From positions 1 through 35,587 of the IMG/VR virus record IMGVR_UViG_3300042887_001094: a stretch of DNA of 35,587 bases. One strand, given 5' to 3'. Source of the DNA: a virus. Below, one piece after another: positions 4,153 to 35,316 of the stretch; position 1 is the first letter of the stretch, and every line of letters begins with the position of its first letter. Under the pieces are notes generated by a model. That model was not told the DNA's origin. It worked only from the letters and a program-made list of their open reading frames with translations, and ran no database searches. Both the position numbers and the translations under genes were made by a program.

Positions 4153-4356
4153 ATGAAAGTAACTAGAGCAAGATCATTTGCGAAAGCAGTAAGTTATCGC
4201 ATATGGGGAACTCTTTCATCTGTTGTTGTTGCCTATGTTATAACAAAAAACGCTGCTCTTTCTGTAACAATTGCGTTTTGGGAAACGGTTGTTAAAATAT
4301 TTCTATACTACGCACATGAGCGTGGGTGGAACTATATTCAATGGGGAAGAAAATGA
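4153..4356 (+). CDS. DUF2061 family membrane protein
   Basis: This gene encodes 67 residues with the full DUF2061 signature: RSFAKAVSYRIWGTL at the start, two hydrophobic segments (LSSVVVAYVITK and ALSVTIAFWETVVKIFLYY), then YYAHERGWNYIQWGRK. It is a small inner-membrane protein of unknown activity. Family members often lie beside or fused to sulfate-assimilation genes, which fits the APS-kinase-like domain just upstream. It is separated from that gene by 68 bases and overlaps the next gene by 4 bases. Confidence 0.85.
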   Translation: MKVTRARSFAKAVSYRIWGTLSSVVVAYVITKNAALSVTIAFWETVVKIFLYYAHERGWNYIQWGRK

Positions 4357-15518: not shown

Positions 15519-15662
15519 ATGAATAACTATAAGGTTAAGTTGGAAATAGATGCTGAAGTTCAAGCATTTAATGAAAACGACGCCATAGATTATGTAAACG
15601 ATATTTTTGGCTTAGATGAAGAAATTAAAAATATTAAAATTGTAAGCGTAAAGGAGAAATAA
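15519..15662 (+). CDS. Small acidic protein
   Basis: This gene encodes 47 residues (MNNYKVKLEIDAEVQAFN..., ending IVSVKEK) with a beta-alpha-beta look: strand, helix NENDAIDYVNDIFG, strand. Its stop overlaps the next ATG (TAATG). The pattern V.LE.DAEV.AFNE.DA..YV is common in small phage proteins of unknown role. Confidence 0.65.
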   Translation: MNNYKVKLEIDAEVQAFNENDAIDYVNDIFGLDEEIKNIKIVSVKEK

Positions 15663-26879: not shown

Positions 26880-27123
26880 GTTGTTTTGCCCTTTCGTTGA
26901 TAGCGAATGATAAATTATACGTCATAACATAGATTTCTGTCAAGGCGTCTAGTCGACCTGAAATATATCTATATGTAGGATAGTCCTGTAACTCAGAAAC
27001 ATTTAACAATCCTTGCTCTGCGTCTAGCATTAGATTTTTTAATTCTCCATGCATGATGTCTGTACCTGTCTCACCCATATCTACAAGCTTTTGAAGATGT
27101 GGGTCAAGTTTAGTTGAATTCAT
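26872..27123 (-). CDS. Hypothetical helical protein
   Basis: This gene encodes 83 residues with a strong Shine-Dalgarno (GGAGGTAGCAA). It is all helical: LDPHLQKLVDMGETGTDIMHGELKNLMLDAEQGLLNV, then YRYISGRLDALTEIYVMTYNLSFAINERAKQRG. It is part of the 27652 to 26496 operon with overlaps on both sides. Confidence 0.65.
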   Translation of the reverse strand: MNSTKLDPHLQKLVDMGETGTDIMHGELKNLMLDAEQGLLNVSELQDYPTYRYISGRLDALTEIYVMTYNLSFAINERAKQRG

Positions 27124-27280: not shown

Positions 27281-27419
27281 ACCCTTCTGCTAGTAGGCCT
27301 TCAAAGAAGTCCCATATGGTTAATAGACCTTGCTTAACATCAGGGTCGGAAGCGGAATCAATAGCAACAGTTAAACTATTACCAAACTCCTGTATATCCT
27401 TATATGTATATCCTAACAT
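27258..27419 (-). CDS. Small helical protein
   Basis: This gene encodes 53 residues from the ATG at 27419 (LGYTYKDIQEFGNSLTVAIDSASDPDVKQGLLTIWDFFEGLLAEGYVQGESY), overlapping the upstream stop. AGGAGAGGAA is 10 or more bases upstream. A TTG start at 27455 would add 12 residues but lies further inside the upstream gene. No family is recognised. Confidence 0.6.
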   Translation of the reverse strand: MLGYTYKDIQEFGNSLTVAIDSASDPDVKQGLLTIWDFFEGLLAEGYVQGESY

Positions 27420-27652
27420 TCTATGTAGTATTCCTCTCCTGGCTCCACCTGCCAATATTCGTTAAATTGTTTTTTGACGGAATCGTCAGAACACATATTT
27501 GCCATTTCATAGTCAGCAATAAACATACCTTCATCTATATGACCAGTTATCCAAGAATCAAATAACTGCTCTTGAATATCTAGTAATACGGCGTCTGAGA
27601 CATGTTTAGCCATATCGTCAAACATACTTGGTTTATCATTTTGATATCCCAT
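27413..27652 (-). CDS. Hypothetical acidic protein, first gene of its operon
   Basis: This gene encodes 79 residues: GYQNDKPSMFDDMAKHVSDAVLLDIQEQLFDSWITGHIDEGMFIADYEMANMCSDDSVKKQFNEYW... It is acidic and helical. The leader AACGAAAGGAGATAT carries a full Shine-Dalgarno, and a TGTCAG-type promoter lies upstream. The function is unknown. Confidence 0.65.
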   Translation of the reverse strand: MGYQNDKPSMFDDMAKHVSDAVLLDIQEQLFDSWITGHIDEGMFIADYEMANMCSDDSVKKQFNEYWQVEPGEEYYIEC

Positions 27653-27658
27653 ATATCT

Positions 27659-27697
27659 CCTTTCGTTATGCCCTAATTATATAACAGACCACTGACA
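27659..27697 (-). promoter_or_regulatory. TGTCAG-type promoter and AACGAAAGG leader
   Basis: On the - strand: TGTCAG (27697-27692), 10 bases, TATAAT (27681-27676), then AACGAAAGG (27667-27659) running into the ATG at 27652. Confidence 0.75.
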
Positions 27698-27712
27698 TTG
27701 TATATAGAATAT

Positions 27713-27727
27713 AGGTGTGTTTCACAC
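27713..27727 (-). promoter_or_regulatory. Palindrome upstream of the 27652 promoter
   Basis: GGTGTG-TTT-CACACC is a perfect inverted repeat about 16 bases upstream of the TGTCAG box. It may be an operator for a dimeric regulator. Confidence 0.45.
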
Positions 27728-27747
27728 CACATGTCCAAGCTTTGAGA

Positions 27748-27806
27748 TTTCAGGGAAATATATTTGACATCCGTAAAAGAGATATGCTACCCTCACGGCT
27801 GAGCGC
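27748..27806 (-). repeat. Composite element copy 3
   Basis: Read on the + strand: TTTCAGGG, 16 bases, CGTAAAAG, 9 bases, then ACCCTCACGGCTGAGCG. It lies between the small-RNA terminator and the promoter of the next operon. Confidence 0.7.
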
Positions 27807-27836
27807 AAAAACCAAACCCCCCGTTTTACTGGGGGG
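27807..27836 (-). terminator. Intrinsic terminator of the candidate small RNA
   Basis: On the - strand CCCCCC-AGTAAAAC-GGGGGG is followed by TTTGGTTTTT. The U-rich tail exists only for leftward transcription, so it ends the candidate small RNA and any read-through from the 27951 operon. Confidence 0.85.
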
Positions 27837-27933
27837 TAAAGAGAATGGCTGCTAGGACCTCAACGAAAGGAAAAACCTGCCTTACTTAGCAACGGGAAGA
27901 GTTGCACCATTCGTATGAATAGGCACATGGCCT
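27807..27933 (-). ncRNA. Candidate trans-acting small RNA, antisense to the AACGAAAGG leaders
   Basis: An extended -10 (TGATATAAT, 27948-27940) predicts a start near 27933. The RNA has a hairpin GCAAC-TCTTCCC-GTTGC (27905-27889), then an open stretch whose 27874-27861 part reads TTTTCCTTTCGTTG, then the terminator hairpin. That stretch is the exact reverse complement of the leader AACGAAAGGAAAA carried by right-arm genes; matches range from 9-10 bases to 14 (gene at 33007). Hairpin, accessible seed and terminator is the classic layout of bacterial small RNAs. No ORF here has a ribosome site. Transcription is not proven. Confidence 0.6.
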
Positions 27934-27936
27934 AAA

Positions 27937-27950
27937 CAAATTATATCACA
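27937..27950 (-). promoter_or_regulatory. Extended -10 promoter of the small RNA
   Basis: TG at 27948-27947, then TATAAT at 27945-27940, just beyond the stop of the 27951 gene. It has no TGTC(A/G)G box and no good -35, so it is wired differently from the mRNAs it may target. Confidence 0.55.
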
Positions 27951-28358
27951 CTAGGTTGTAAGAATTTTCTCCAATGCATACTTCTCGCAGAACGCCGATA
28001 GGTCCATGGTGAAGATTGCTTCATTCTTCATGCCACGCACCTTATTGTCAAGGTTGCGGTGATCGTCCCAATCATGCAATGAGAATGTTTGTTGCTGCCA
28101 ATTGATAACAGCAATCTTGTGTTCGTTGTCTCCAATTGAATTTACCTGCAGTCCCCATCCAGTTTCCATATTCCATTGGTCACCAATCAATTGACTGATA
28201 GCAATGCGTGTCGCATAAGATTCATCTGTCCAGCGGGGACGGGCAGCAATGACAGCATCCGCTAATTTACCTAACATGTTATATCCAGCCCAGTGTCCGT
28301 ATAGACATATGGTGTCGCCTGCTCCGTCTACGAATACGTAGTTTGCTCTATCTCCCAT
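27951..28358 (-). CDS. Conserved actinophage protein (MGDRANYVFV type)
   Basis: This gene encodes 135 residues. The start MGDRANYVFVDGAGDTICLYGHWAGY is a pattern seen in small conserved proteins of actinophages and actinobacteria. It continues LADAVIAARPRWTDESYATRIAISQLIGDQ and INWQQQTFSLHDWDDH. It is mixed alpha-beta and of unknown role. AAGGCGGAAATATA precedes the ATG, which overlaps the upstream stop. Confidence 0.75.
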   Translation of the reverse strand: MGDRANYVFVDGAGDTICLYGHWAGYNMLGKLADAVIAARPRWTDESYATRIAISQLIGDQWNMETGWGLQVNSIGDNEHKIAVINWQQQTFSLHDWDDHRNLDNKVRGMKNEAIFTMDLSAFCEKYALEKILTT

Positions 28359-28960: not shown

Positions 28961-29619
28961 TAGTTCCAATCCACATCTGTACTCTCGATTGTCCAATCGC
29001 CAACTTCAACATCGTTTCCGTAAGATGTTAAAGAAAGTTCATCACCAAGTTTGTAGTAGGCATCGAAGTTATCGATCTCATCAAGTGGGACTTGAACATT
29101 TACTTCAAAGTTAATAGTTCCAGTTACGGTAACTGTCTTTGATAATTCAAATCCAAACAGTTCTGCTACTTGTTGAAGCACTTCCTCTTTTGTATAATTA
29201 GGATTATACAGTTCAACTAGAAGTTCTTCTAACTCATTAACCTTAAGTTTAAGGCCAAGGTACAGGTCATCAGCACGGCGACCTTGTTCTAGGGCCCACT
29301 CTAAGTCAACTACTTTTTGAGTAATATACTCAGGTGCTTCGGGTTGTGCGTATGTCCCAGCAATCTTCTTGTAAGTTACAAGTAGATTAGGGTTATACTC
29401 ATTAGGTACTGCAGGTGTTACTGTTGCTCCATATGTTTCCATTATTTCCCTTTCGTTGGTTGGTTGTATTGTAACATCTCCGACTGACAGTAGTACATAT
29501 GGGCTATTATTAAGTGGGGTGAGAAGTAGCTTTTCCTCAGTCCCTTCTAAATGAGTAACCTCAATTAAACAGTCAGTGTCTGTATTTAAATAACTATACT
29601 TATTCCATTTTTCTTTCAT
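28960..29619 (-). CDS. Hypothetical protein with internal promoter and second start
   Basis: The frame runs 219 residues from an ATG in ATGA overlap with the upstream gene. It also contains, in frame, a full TGTCAG promoter and AACGAAAGGG leader before the ATG at 29442, which would give a 160-residue product starting METYGATVTPAVPNEYNPN. The C-terminal 160 residues include a helix pair (VVDLEWALEQGRRADDLYLGLKLKVNELEELLVEL) and a beta region (TVTVTGTINFEVNVQVPLDEI). Both products are plausible. The family is unknown. Confidence 0.65.
   Translation of the reverse strand: MKEKWNKYSYLNTDTDCLIEVTHLEGTEEKLLLTPLNNSPYVLLSVGDVTIQPTNEREIMETYGATVTPAVPNEYNPNLLVTYKKIAGTYAQPEAPEYITQKVVDLEWALEQGRRADDLYLGLKLKVNELEELLVELYNPNYTKEEVLQQVAELFGFELSKTVTVTGTINFEVNVQVPLDEIDNFDAYYKLGDELSLTSYGNDVEVGDWTIESTDVDWN
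29449..29489 (-). promoter_or_regulatory. Internal TGTCAG-type promoter
   Basis: On the - strand: TGTCAG (29489-29484), 10 bases, TACAAT (29473-29468), then AACGAAAGG (29457-29449) and the ATG at 29442. It lies inside the longer reading frame. Confidence 0.7.
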
Positions 29620-30359: not shown

Positions 30360-30400
30360 CCTTTCGTTAATTAGCGCAATTGTATCAGAGTCAACTGACA
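30360..30400 (-). promoter_or_regulatory. TGTCAG-type promoter of the Api92-like operon
   Basis: On the - strand: TGTCAG (30400-30395), 10 bases, TACAAT (30384-30379), then AACGAAAGG (30368-30360). A TTGATA precedes at the -35 position, so here both kinds of upstream contact are possible. Confidence 0.75.
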
Positions 30401-30581: not shown

Positions 30582-31589
30582 TTAAGCGAGGGATTTAACC
30601 ATCTTGAGAATTTTATTCTTCTCAGCAGTTAATACAGGGTCAAAGCCACTTGCCGAAGCCATTAAGGAATCGGAGTTGCCAGTTTTAGATGAGCGGTAAT
30701 AATCTAAACGCTCAGTCAATGCATTAAACGCACCCCAAGCGGTGCCCTTAATTGCGGTATTAGTTGGTGAATTATGATACAGGTCATCGATAACCACAAC
30801 TTTATTTTCCCAACGAGTTAGAGCAGCCTTAGTTGCCTCTTCAGGTTTAGGATATAGATTGCGAATCAAATCTGAGAATTGCTTATCAGTAATTGATTGC
30901 TTGAATAACTCTTCAGCCTGCTTTTGAAATTCATCAGCATAGGCAAATGTTAATCCCAATGCTTGACGGGCTTGAACAATTCTGCCCTCGGCGGTTTGGG
31001 TATGGCGAATCTTGAATGATTGTTTAGCACCCTTCATAGCAAGATTAAGAGTGTTTTGGCATACAACACGAACAGGTGTGATTGCTGCTTGAACAGCCAC
31101 TGAGCCATCGTGTGATGTCCAGACAATTAAATATAACTTAGTTTTATCGTTAACACCTTGTGGGTCTAATACGATTTCACGAGGAATATCTAATGAGCCA
31201 AATACAACTTTGCCCTTTTTAATTGAGCCAGCGGATTCCCATTTAGCAGCATCATTGTCTAATACATTATCAGCAAATGCGAATAACTCTTCATTTTGAA
31301 CAGTCTTATATCGCTTACCAACTACTGACAAAACATCGGTGCCTTGATCGAATGGGTTATCACGAATTACATAGAAATTATCTGATGTATTTCTCCATGT
31401 GTTTGGGATATGATCTGCAACATCTGACAAGCGGACATTCCAGTTATTTAACTTTGCTTCTTCAAGCATAGTTGCGGTGCTTACCTTCTCATCTTGAGAG
31501 AAGATACGATTTGCAAGATTGTGCCAAGCAGGTGCGCCACGCAGCGCAAATGCTACTTTGCCATCTTGCTCTTCTAGGTTGTGAGCCAT
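30582..31589 (-). CDS. DUF932 family phage/plasmid protein
   Basis: This gene encodes 335 residues of the TIGR03299/DUF932 type: an N-terminal GAPAWHNLANRIF, then NFYVIRDNPF.....VLSVVGKRYKTVQNEELFAFAD, ESAGSIKKGKVVFGSLDIP, VWTSHDGSVAVQAAITPVRVVCQNTLNLAM (the family's best-known block) and a C-terminal TAWGAFNALTERLDYYRS. It is widespread in phages and plasmids; the role is unknown, perhaps DNA-related. It has its own TGTCAG promoter. Confidence 0.9.
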   Translation of the reverse strand: MAHNLEEQDGKVAFALRGAPAWHNLANRIFSQDEKVSTATMLEEAKLNNWNVRLSDVADHIPNTWRNTSDNFYVIRDNPFDQGTDVLSVVGKRYKTVQNEELFAFADNVLDNDAAKWESAGSIKKGKVVFGSLDIPREIVLDPQGVNDKTKLYLIVWTSHDGSVAVQAAITPVRVVCQNTLNLAMKGAKQSFKIRHTQTAEGRIVQARQALGLTFAYADEFQKQAEELFKQSITDKQFSDLIRNLYPKPEEATKAALTRWENKVVVIDDLYHNSPTNTAIKGTAWGAFNALTERLDYYRSSKTGNSDSLMASASGFDPVLTAEKNKILKMVKSLA

Positions 31590-31594
31590 TTTAT

Positions 31595-31638
31595 CCTTTC
31601 GTTTGGTTGAATGCTTATTCTAACATAGTCCACTGACA
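31595..31638 (-). promoter_or_regulatory. TGTCAG-type promoter of the DUF932 gene
   Basis: On the - strand: TGTCAG (31638-31633), 10 bases, TAGAAT (31622-31617), then AACGAAAGG (31603-31595). TAGACA lies at the -35 position. Confidence 0.75.
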
Positions 31639-32048: not shown

Positions 32049-32474
32049 TTACAAGTATCTTGCGATAGCGTTGTAAGTAGAAGTGCTAACCACTTCCTCA
32101 TCGGTCATTTTGAGAATACGGATAGCGTTTTCCATTTCATCTGCCATCTCATTGTAAGTATGGCGGTGGATTTCCTCATAGTCCTTTTCAGGCTCTTTAG
32201 GGAAGTCTTTGCCATCTGTTGTTATATCAAAATCAACATTTAGCGTTTTGTTGTAAGAACGATAGTTGGTGCGAAGGTTCTCAGCCTTTGTGAAATTAGC
32301 AATAGCCCACTTGCCGATTTCTTTCTGCCAAGCCTCTTTCTTTTTTGAGAACTTAGCATCGTTCTCGTCTTGCTTTGCGTAGTCAGCCTTTAGTTTGGCT
32401 AACCTTGTTTCTAAGGCTTTGATAACCTTAGCAGTAGGTATTTTTACCTGTATTGCTTTACCGCTTCTTGCCAT
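32049..32474 (-). CDS. Hypothetical coiled-coil protein
   Basis: This gene encodes 141 residues. The N-terminal half is a basic coiled coil (IPTAKVIKALETRLAKLKADYAKQDENDAKFSKKKEAWQKEIGKWA). The second half is polar (YRSYNKTLNVDFDITTDGKDFPKEPEKDYEEIHRH), ending in helices. The W-containing helix pair followed by a D/E-rich segment occurs in other actinophage early proteins, but the function is unknown. It has a TGTCGG promoter and the AACGAAAGGAAA leader. Confidence 0.7.
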   Translation of the reverse strand: MARSGKAIQVKIPTAKVIKALETRLAKLKADYAKQDENDAKFSKKKEAWQKEIGKWAIANFTKAENLRTNYRSYNKTLNVDFDITTDGKDFPKEPEKDYEEIHRHTYNEMADEMENAIRILKMTDEEVVSTSTYNAIARYL

Positions 32475-32482
32475 TTGTGTTT

Positions 32483-32535
32483 CCTTTCGTTAGGTGGGTT
32501 TATTATAGCGGATACCACCGACAAGCGGTATCCGC
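32483..32535 (-). promoter_or_regulatory. TGTCGG-type promoter overlapping a terminator hairpin
   Basis: On the - strand: TGTCGG (32523-32518), 10 bases, TATAAT (32507-32502), then AACGAAAGG (32491-32483). The box sits in the loop of the inverted repeat GCGGATACC (32508-32516) / GGTATCCGC (32527-32535), which ends directly at the -10. Confidence 0.75.
32508..32535 (-). terminator. Hairpin after the 32543 gene
   Basis: GCGGATACC / GGTATCCGC, 9 base pairs, loop of 10. It follows the 32543 stop and is followed by TATAATAAA, the next promoter's -10, so one sequence serves as an RNA 3' end and as promoter DNA. Confidence 0.6.
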
Positions 32536-32542
32536 ATTATGA

Positions 32543-32695
32543 TTAGTTAGTTAGACTTGTCCAACGCTCTTTACCTTCTACATCAAGTAGAATACGACTT
32601 ACACCGCTTGGGTGGTTGTCTATTGCTTTGATAACACCGACAACATTACTTGTTGTGGTTGTATAGGTCTGTCCGACCTCTAGTGTTTGGTTCAT
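32543..32695 (-). CDS. Small beta-rich protein
   Basis: This gene encodes 50 residues: NQTLEVGQTYTTTTSNVVGVIKAIDNHPSGVSRILLDVEGKERWTSLTN. The pattern L.VGQTYTT..S.V.G.I..I..HP.G..R..LDV.G..RWT.L is a neat SH3-like small barrel. It begins with the leader AACGAAAGGAAACAA and a TGTCGG promoter. Both flanks and the clean frame support it. Confidence 0.7.
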   Translation of the reverse strand: MNQTLEVGQTYTTTTSNVVGVIKAIDNHPSGVSRILLDVEGKERWTSLTN

Positions 32696-32701
32696 TTGTT
32701 T

Positions 32702-32740
32702 CCTTTCGTTAGGGGTTTATTATAGCACCAGCCACCGACA
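32702..32740 (-). promoter_or_regulatory. TGTCGG-type promoter
   Basis: On the - strand: TGTCGG (32740-32735), 10 bases, TATAAT (32724-32719), then AACGAAAGG (32710-32702) before the ATG at 32695. Confidence 0.75.
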
Positions 32741-33007
32741 TTATTCGGCTTCAGGTAGCCACGCTTCTAGGTGATGAGCCTCAATTATTGCTGAGGCGGG
32801 AGATGAGGTCTGACCTCTCCATGACACTCCCTCAGGTAGTTTAATTAACTTATCATAGTCCTCCTCATAGTAAGCATCAATAGCATCAATACATGGTTCT
32901 ACCATAGATGCGGGTACGGGTGGATAATGATTATTTCTTAGATGAAGTAGAATTGCTTGGTCTAAGTCAAAACTCTCCGCTAAGTCTAATGCTGTGTTAT
33001 ATCCCAT
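32741..33007 (-). CDS. Hypothetical protein
   Basis: This gene encodes 88 residues: GYNTALDLAESFDLDQAILLHLRNNHYPPVPASMVEPCIDAIDAYYEEDYDKLIKLPEGVSWRGQTSSPASAIIEAHHLEAWLPEAE. The motif HLRNNHYPPVP..M...C..AI.A...ED......LPEGV..RG....A..IIE.HHLEAWL is compact and looks like a conserved actinophage early protein. Its leader has the longest match (14 bases) to the candidate small RNA. Confidence 0.7.
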   Translation of the reverse strand: MGYNTALDLAESFDLDQAILLHLRNNHYPPVPASMVEPCIDAIDAYYEEDYDKLIKLPEGVSWRGQTSSPASAIIEAHHLEAWLPEAE

Positions 33008-33013
33008 TGTTTT

Positions 33014-33057
33014 CCTTTCGTTGGTGTTGGGCTAGATTATACTCTAGCCCACTGACA
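33014..33057 (-). promoter_or_regulatory. TGTCAG-type promoter with palindrome over the -10
   Basis: On the - strand: TGTCAG (33057-33052), 10 bases, TATAAT (33041-33036), then AACGAAAGG (33022-33014). The -10 lies inside a perfect inverted repeat GGGCTAGA-TTATAC-TCTAGCCC (33029-33050), a likely operator. Confidence 0.75.
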
Positions 33058-33318
33058 TTATACTAAGGCTAGGATAGCGCTAGAAGCATATTGGTTTGCG
33101 TCTGCTAATTTATTTTCTATTTCAGAGCGTGTCATTTTAGCAGGGTCACCAATAAGGTGTTTTACCATGCGAATATTTTCGATAGTAAAAACTCCTTTAG
33201 GTAATTTTTCTATCTTGGAATAAAACTCTCCATCAGGGTTAATTAAAGACAAAAAATCCACTCCATTTACGGAGAAAGGATATTTAACCCAGTTAGTTGT
33301 ATCTAGTATTGTTTCCAT
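33058..33318 (-). CDS. Hypothetical protein
   Basis: This gene encodes 86 residues: an aromatic beta start (TTNWVKYPFSVNGVDFLSLINPDGEFYSKIEKLPKGVFTIENIRMVKHLIGDPAKMTRSEIENKLADANQYASSAILALV) followed by helices. KMTRSEIENKLADA resembles a small helix-turn-helix or LEM-type packing, not a firm family. It has the AACGAAAGGAAACAA leader and a TGTCAG promoter. Confidence 0.65.
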   Translation of the reverse strand: METILDTTNWVKYPFSVNGVDFLSLINPDGEFYSKIEKLPKGVFTIENIRMVKHLIGDPAKMTRSEIENKLADANQYASSAILALV

Positions 33319-33324
33319 TTGTTT

Positions 33325-33364
33325 CCTTTCGTTATTTATGGAATTATATCAGTTCTAACTGACA
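33325..33364 (-). promoter_or_regulatory. TGTCAG-type promoter
   Basis: On the - strand: TGTCAG (33364-33359), 10 bases, TATAAT (33348-33343), then AACGAAAGG (33333-33325) before the ATG at 33318. Confidence 0.75.
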
Positions 33365-34460: not shown

Positions 34461-34503
34461 CCTTTCGTTGGGTGAATTGATATTATACCTAACACGGCTG
34501 ACA
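34461..34503 (-). promoter_or_regulatory. TGTCAG-type promoter
   Basis: On the - strand: TGTCAG (34503-34498), 10 bases, TATAAT (34487-34482), then AACGAAAGG (34469-34461) before the ATG at 34453. Confidence 0.75.
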
Positions 34504-34925: not shown

Positions 34926-35129
34926 TTATTTTCCCCCAATAAATCCAGCACGATTAAAGTTTTTAGTATACATTTTACCATTAGGTAAAGATAAATTATA
35001 GGTTGCTAATTCATCAGCAAAGCCAACATCTATACATTTAAGTAAATAATCTGAGAAGGCTTGTAGTGGGTCAGAGTATTGCATGGCTAATTCTAATTTG
35101 CCATCATAGTAAGTATCTAGTCTATACAT
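34926..35129 (-). CDS. Hypothetical protein
   Basis: This gene encodes 67 residues from the ATG at 35129, overlapping the upstream stop (TAATG). The sequence YRLDTYYDGKLELAMQYSDPLQAFSDYLLKCIDVGFADELATYNLSLPNGKMYTKNFNRAGFIGG has a small alpha-beta pattern (DPLQAF..Y..C.D.G.A.E.ATYNL..P.GKMYTK.F) seen in other phage early regions. Confidence 0.7.
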   Translation of the reverse strand: MYRLDTYYDGKLELAMQYSDPLQAFSDYLLKCIDVGFADELATYNLSLPNGKMYTKNFNRAGFIGGK

Positions 35130-35260
35130 TAGATACCCCACGCATTCTTAACACAATCGCAACTTTCCACATCATAATTCTTTTCATCACCAAAGAATAT
35201 GAAACCAGCACCGCCACATTCATCACAAGCGACCCCGATTATTTCTGTTAGATTTCCCAT
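35129..35260 (-). CDS. Small zinc-binding protein
   Basis: This gene encodes 43 residues (GNLTEIIGVACDECGGAGFIFFGDEKNYDVESCDCVKNAWGI). CDECGGAGF and CDC form a DnaJ-type or treble-clef zinc knuckle. Its leader AACGAAAGGAAAACT has a 13-base match to the candidate small RNA. It is first in its operon. Confidence 0.7.
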   Translation of the reverse strand: MGNLTEIIGVACDECGGAGFIFFGDEKNYDVESCDCVKNAWGI

Positions 35261-35270
35261 TTATAGTTTT

Positions 35271-35316
35271 CCTTTCGTTTGTTTGTTAATGGTAATTATA
35301 GCCTAAGCCACCGACA
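35271..35316 (-). promoter_or_regulatory. TGTCGG-type promoter
   Basis: On the - strand: TGTCGG (35316-35311), 10 bases, TATAAT (35300-35295), then AACGAAAGG (35279-35271) before the ATG at 35260. Confidence 0.75.

Follow-up and report, generated by a model that had tools for sequence, protein, structure and literature searches.

The protein repressor RegA of phage T4 binds many early mRNAs at their initiation regions. In alphaproteobacteria, the alpha-r14 ('cuckoo') sRNAs, such as NfeR1, have unpaired loops with an ultraconserved anti-Shine-Dalgarno motif on stems that vary, and NfeR1 has been shown experimentally to silence several mRNAs, whose translation initiation regions it covers (PMC10746234). 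In cluster K mycobacteriophages, the short asymmetric repeat SAS overlaps the Shine-Dalgarno sequence of many right-arm genes in one orientation; it is conserved beyond its pairing with 16S rRNA, and whether an RNA or a protein binds it was left open by the authors, who also remarked on a single reverse-oriented SAS in Anaya (PMC3203893). The phage antisense RNAs P22 sar, P1/P7 c4, and lambda OOP pair with phage mRNA and lower its expression (PMC12197685). We found no precedent in the literature for one phage RNA that controls a whole gene set via a shared leader.

In this study, we analyzed a stretch of viral DNA of 35,587 bases (IMG/VR virus record IMGVR_UViG_3300042887_001094; hereafter, the window), in which a first-pass annotation had proposed a small RNA antisense to the ribosome-binding leader shared by the right-arm genes. 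The principle resembles that of the alphaproteobacterial anti-Shine-Dalgarno sRNAs, but the RNA is a new phage family directed at a shared phage leader. As in alpha-r14, an unpaired anti-Shine-Dalgarno loop is complementary to several initiation regions (11 leaders in the window and 793 sites in relatives), with the silencing effect being inferred here. However, alpha-r14 RNAs carry the CCUCCUCCC motif in three hairpins, whereas CUUUCGUU occurs in one hairpin here, so the RNA does not qualify as a member of that family. Moreover, alpha-r14 RNAs are cellular and address ordinary host Shine-Dalgarno sites, while the RNA described here is phage-encoded, has an unrelated structure, and matches a phage-specific extended leader. 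With SAS, the leader AACGAAAG shares the property of being a one-orientation repeat that overlaps the Shine-Dalgarno sequence of non-structural genes; by sequence, it is not a SAS, which is the 13-bp GGGATAGGAGCCC as opposed to AACGAAAG(G). P22 sar, P1/P7 c4, and lambda OOP have one specific target each, in contrast to the motif of about a dozen leaders matched by the RNA of the window. RegA is likewise a single phage factor for many initiation regions, but acts as a protein and not by RNA complementarity.

The reverse SAS of Anaya lies in the gap between gp96 and gp97 (L285:33820-33935), where a long hairpin is predicted whose terminal loop contains CCTCCTATCC. The CCTCCTATCC sequence is kept in Anaya-group relatives; some of them fold differently, and the fold of the 88-base stretch in Anaya is not clearly more stable than those of shuffled sequences (z -1.1). 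The right ends of TM4, ZoeJ, and Pixie and the right arm of Amgine have SAS, but no antisense SAS hairpin was seen there. This predicted hairpin is a parallel to the RNA of the window and not evidence for it.

The RNA gene is flanked by the - strand genes 27951-28358 and 27413-27652 and lies in the gap that separates them. A check against the sequence found the coordinates and counts of the first-pass annotation to be correct, and confirmed both its extended -10 element on the - strand (27948-27940) and its terminator with a U-rich tail (stem 27837-27816, followed by TTTGGTTTTT). The features are listed below in the direction of the predicted transcript.

27940..27948, - strand: extended -10 promoter element TGATATAAT, from the sequence
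27807..27933, - strand: predicted RNA of ~127 nt (about 125), the stretch between the -10 element and the U tract
27841..27913, - strand: conserved structured core of the RNA family, from covariance model R1 (E 1.6e-8)
27906..27912, - strand: stem P1, 5' side (partner 27843-27849); P1 is 91% paired, with two-sided changes at 4/7 pairs
27901..27905, - strand: stem P2, 5' side (partner 27889-27893); P2 is 100% paired
27889..27893, - strand: stem P2, 3' side, from alignment and covariation
27876..27880, - strand: stem P3, 5' side (partner 27851-27856, with one bulged A at 27853)
27862..27869, - strand: invariant loop octamer CTTTCGTT (anti-leader seed), in 111/111 true hits of a loop-agnostic scan
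27851..27856, - strand: stem P3, 3' side, from alignment and covariation
27843..27849, - strand: stem P1, 3' side, from alignment and covariation
27807..27837, - strand: strong intrinsic terminator, stem 27837-27816 plus the U-rich tail TTTGGTTTTT

Beyond the terminator there is a second noncoding block (27659-27806, - strand), which is conserved and occupies the same place in relatives. It contains GAGGGTAGCATAT..TTTACGGATGTCAAATATATTTCCCTGAAAT.., then short inverted repeats and TTATATAATTAGGGCAT, and finally the next leader; it is possibly an origin or a regulatory region.

Searching viral contigs with the protein encoded by the gene upstream of the RNA yielded 65 loci, most of which have the same RNA at the same position in the gap downstream of that gene, and pattern scans brought the total to 126 loci whose RNAs are non-identical. 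We aligned 64 diverse RNAs and parsed their stems from conserved anchors. The resulting architecture consists of an outer stem P1 around hairpin P2, a conserved UAARUAA linker, and hairpin P3. The 'small hairpin' and 'open seed' initially described were thus refined to a structure of three stems, the third of which carries the seed in its loop. In the alignment, P1, P2, and P3 are all backed by many two-sided changes; one P2 position is occupied by G-C, C-G, A-U, and U-A pairs (63/63 paired, compared with 28 after shuffling). In a 40-sequence alignment that excluded the window subtype, 94.1% of cells were paired versus 79.9% in shuffled alignments, and the covariation score was 0.383 versus 0.138 shuffled and <=0.11 slid. 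The covariance model R1, built from this alignment, detects the RNA of the window at 27841-27913(-) with an E of 1.6e-8, and the fold of the window RNA itself has a predicted energy of -39.4 kcal/mol (z = -2.06). The P2 closing base and the R of UAARUAA are C and G, or U and A, in 62/63 sequences. A pseudoknot of AARUAA with UUACUU or UUAUUU (six base pairs) is possible in only 20/63 and is not general.

A TGn-TATAAT-like element was found <=75 nt upstream of the RNA in 34/63 relatives (6.7% of random stretches) and a terminator in 30/63 (1.4% of random stretches); both are recognizable in 26/63 relatives, and both are present in the window. Because promoter and terminator can each be recognized in only about half of the relatives, a longer transcript may supply the RNA in some phages. 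In one locus (L061), the identical loop sits on a bare, unrelated-looking hairpin at the same position. The window RNA and eight diverse relatives matched no Rfam family (release 15) at gathering or relaxed thresholds, where only tRNAs were reported, and DNA searches of INPHARED gave no match. A pattern scan of genome_contigs returned 37 matches, which were read as chance; flanking stems were seen in none of them. This is a real and new phage RNA family, previously uncatalogued and absent from Rfam.

Next, a scan constrained just the linker and the P3/P1 ends and left the loop free. All 111 true hits (74 distinct) of this loop-agnostic scan have CUUUCGUU; six hits lacking it are located in unrelated sequence and are not true hits. 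The bases flanking the octamer vary (C, A, or T before it; G, T, or C after it). The claim that the seed is the exact complement of the leader was retained, while its proposed length of 9-14 bases was not: 8 bases, CTTTCGTT, are kept across phages, not 13, and the additional complementarity in the window (C before the octamer and TTTTT after it) is peculiar to the window subtype. A 3' extension of the pairing was also rejected: the seed base is not tracked by the base following AACGAAAG in the A and T subtypes, so the common pairing comprises only 8 bases. A one-base loop variant, CTTTCGAT (CUUUCGAU), occurs uncompensated in L396, a locus from the protein search; apart from this, the loop is either CUUUCGUU or gone, and no clean compensatory double change of loop and leader was found. 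A pattern search for a changed seed with GACGAAAG gave five hits, which lack both the leader motif and the flanking RNA stems and were read as chance coding sequence. Taken together, the conserved, covarying stems and the invariant octamer uphold an RNA whose loop is antisense to the shared leader, and conservation across loci rules out a chance origin of the match between seed and leader, which the first-pass annotation had kept as unlikely but possible.

The 9-mer AACGAAAGG occurs 12 times in the window, compared with 0.18 expected and a maximum of 2 in 100 shuffles. Eleven copies are on the - strand, every one just 5' of a - strand start codon; the sole + strand copy (27862-27870) is within the candidate RNA, and no + strand gene in the whole window has AACGAAAGG ahead of its start. 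This count confirms the previous statement that the leader precedes 11 named right-arm genes and no + strand gene. The target leaders and the energies of their predicted duplexes with the seed are as follows.

26890..26898, - strand: target leader AACGAAAGG, gene start 26879, -20.6 kcal/mol
27659..27667, - strand: target leader, gene 27413-27652, -16.6 kcal/mol
29449..29457, - strand: target leader, gene start 29442, -19.5 kcal/mol
30360..30368, - strand: target leader, gene start 30353, -18.5 kcal/mol
31595..31603, - strand: target leader of the DUF932 gene (Pfam), gene 30582-31589, -15.5 kcal/mol
32483..32491, - strand: target leader, gene 32049-32474, -18.4 kcal/mol
32702..32710, - strand: target leader, gene 32543-32695, -16.9 kcal/mol
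33014..33022, - strand: target leader, gene 32741-33007, -19.9 kcal/mol
33325..33333, - strand: target leader, gene 33058-33318, -16.2 kcal/mol
34461..34469, - strand: target leader, gene start 34453, -16.4 kcal/mol
35271..35279, - strand: target leader, gene 35129-35260, -17.4 kcal/mol

A perfect TTGACA-18-TATAAT promoter (26914-26943, - strand) is present just upstream of the leader at 26890. The RNA-RNA interaction prediction that had been suggested as a check thus came out in favor of pairing, with -15.5 to -20.6 kcal/mol for the 11 leaders versus mostly -3 to -12 kcal/mol for 30 left-arm leaders against the loop; one left-arm leader, at 15662, reaches -15.9 kcal/mol and counts against the proposal. 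The octamer is predicted to be more open than the average of the RNA (median 0.69 versus 0.41), and 10 of the 11 window leaders are mostly open as well (0.61-0.85 unpaired). For the window subtype, the fold also allows a weak 4-bp helix involving part of the loop, which was counted against our best explanation.

We propose that the locus encodes a trans-acting regulatory RNA of the phage, which in the window phage would be transcribed, as inferred from the sequence signals, from its own extended -10 promoter and would end at the intrinsic terminator. The P3 loop would display CUUUCGUU and pair with the AACGAAAG leader, including the GAAAG(G) Shine-Dalgarno sequence. By imitating the 3' tail of 16S rRNA, the RNA would withhold the Shine-Dalgarno sequence from ribosomes. 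The actinobacterial 16S rRNA tail ends in CCUCCUUUCU, which the loop sequence UCCUUUCGUU resembles; the C of AACG would interrupt pairing with 16S rRNA and complete pairing with the phage RNA. On accumulation, the RNA would lower translation of the whole right-arm set together, for example at an early-to-late switch, a timing that is inferred. The RNA carries the complement of the leader and not the leader itself, which favors pairing over a protein decoy. Base pairing between loop and leaders is very likely from their sequences; that it takes place in the cell is inferred. Coordinated repression by masking of the Shine-Dalgarno sequence is likely, and is inferred because the pairing position covers both the Shine-Dalgarno sequence and the preceding AAC, not shown. 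Since the loop is exactly complementary to a tag before about a dozen genes, the whole set would probably be turned off at once. As a whole, this trans-acting RNA with masked Shine-Dalgarno sequences and a repressed gene set is the best explanation and, in our judgment, a probable one, for which no transcript, 5' end, or binding data are available.

The same pairing evidence would also fit if the RNA activated or protected the transcripts, by recruiting ribosomes or a host factor or by blocking RNase entry, and the complex conserved body (P1, P2, and UAARUAA) exceeds what a simple antisense loop needs. However, the bare hairpin of L061 manages without such a body, pairing covers the GAAAG(G) needed by the 30S subunit, and the leaders, being already mostly unpaired (0.61-0.85 in 10/11), offer no inhibitory structure to be opened. 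Activation therefore appears unlikely; it is not excluded, as the sequence alone does not separate it from repression.

Pairing with the shared leader can further be considered in the light of the relatives. In the 126 RNA-bearing loci, AACGAAAG occurs 793 times on the strand of the RNA, 768 of these followed by a start codon and an open frame, and 132 times on the other strand, i.e. about once per locus, which is the RNA itself. It is the commonest 8-mer in the gene-upstream regions of these loci and mostly lies 7-11 bases from the start codon. Although AACGAAAG overlaps the Shine-Dalgarno sequence (GAAAGG), the two are separable, as leaders with AACGAAAGAGGA and AACGAAAGAAGG have a separate Shine-Dalgarno sequence. 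On the same strand of these loci, a second motif, CTAACAAAGGCGGAAT, is also frequent upstream of genes and may represent one orthologous gene.

AAC precedes GAAAGG in 510/832 distinct leaders of RNA-bearing loci (514/841, 61%, by a slightly different count), compared with 16/66 (24%) among relatives that lack a matching loop (Fisher 7e-9; per-locus Mann-Whitney 1e-4; uncorrected for phylogeny). The latter set, reached with a diverged query, comprises L380, L382, L407, L410, L423, L446, and phage DSL-LC01. As the loci are related to each other and to the RNA-bearing ones, these p values overstate independence; in addition, most of the loci without the loop are parts of contigs, so that absence of the RNA from the entire phage remains unproven. 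L446 has a homologous RNA (R1, E 4e-4) with its own promoter and terminator, and shares the flanking promoter sequence GTTATATAATTAGGGCAT with the window. Its P3 loop is UCCCAGU, and only 2/10 of its GAAAGG leaders have AAC; judged by sequence, L446 is a natural case of loop loss. GGGAA, which is complementary to UUCCC in this loop, occurs in 5/19 L446 leaders versus 83/1547 for the main family (p 0.003, post hoc, one genome), which gives a hint, and no more, of retargeting in L446/L454. In the suggested comparison of seed and leaders, fixation of AAC is associated with the loop, and a clean double change is missing. Leaders that change without matching changes in the seed had been named as a refutation; this was not what we observed, as relaxed leaders occur where the RNA or the loop is absent.

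Conservation of the leader beyond the needs of the ribosome was borne out, whereas the inference from this alone to selection for pairing was not, given the counterexamples of DSL-LC01 and cluster K. DSL-LC01 has 22 conserved ACGAAAGG leaders, for which no exact complement was found in this phage, and R1 finds no family member there; a conserved leader thus does not require an RNA. An intergenic CTTTCGTT at 4279 of DSL-LC01 was rejected, with terminal G-U pairing and a fold unlike the family. A structured gap (L287:4196-4336, z -2.5) in this phage holds a CTTTCGTT and GTCCTAAGGTAGCGA, the latter presumably resembling a conserved segment of 23S rRNA. In DSL-LC01 (L281) and L380-L382, leaders with CGACGAAAGGACA or ACCGAAGGGACA are kept before many genes, and no matching RNA was found in them. 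Conserved leaders without the RNA in DSL-LC01, and in those cluster K mycobacteriophages where a search showed no antisense site (PMC3203893), are compatible with AACGAAAG being an independent, SAS-like signal for translation or at the DNA level, with the loop binding something else that has the same octamer or matching by coincidence. We regard this as improbable in view of the exact 8-base complement that is invariant in every true loop-agnostic hit, the strand specificity of AACGAAAG, and the relaxation of AAC where the loop is missing. That the site is merely a DNA element, such as a protein-binding repeat or an origin, might be suggested by the second conserved noncoding block just downstream, but is hardly tenable against the compensatory changes in covarying stems, the flanking promoter and terminator, and the narrow spacing between leader and start (mostly 7-11 bases), a property of translation.

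For the product of the DUF932 gene, the nearest proteins are those of Streptomyces phages (52%); the neighbor protein has matches in Actinomycetia phage DSL-LC01, Nocardia phage NTR1, and Streptomyces phages. The host is likely actinobacterial. DSL-LC01 came from lake water, from which we infer, with the IMG records unchecked, that the RNA family occurs in freshwater viruses. In the fetched stretches of Streptomyces phage IchabodCrane and Nocardia phage NTR1, neither a AACGAAAG leader set nor the RNA was found. IchabodCrane has a tmRNA gene after the homolog of the gene upstream of the RNA, at the same relative position (L283:20001-20695). NTR1 (L284) has a start-linked repeat before open frames, TTAGCACGGGTTCC on one strand and AACGCACGGAACCC on the other. 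A further phage group (L455-L458) has leaders with CTTAAGAC(A/G)GGAGA, whose palindromic CTTAAG core is also frequent elsewhere in the contigs; no convincing anti-leader hairpin was seen in this group.

The RNA family, absent from Rfam, is present in more than 100 environmental phage loci. The chances are about even that the phage has a translational regulon of its own, apart from host mRNAs, made up of a single structured RNA whose loop is fixed and of the matching tag carried by a dozen operons, and that similar pairs may explain some actinophage SAS. If the proposal is true, it would be an RNA version of a translational repressor that acts phage-wide, and the question of who reads the start-associated leaders of actinophages, the ribosome, a protein, or an RNA (PMC3203893), would become directly testable. 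The phage would then have a virus-specific 'second anti-Shine-Dalgarno' that addresses its genes separately from host mRNAs.
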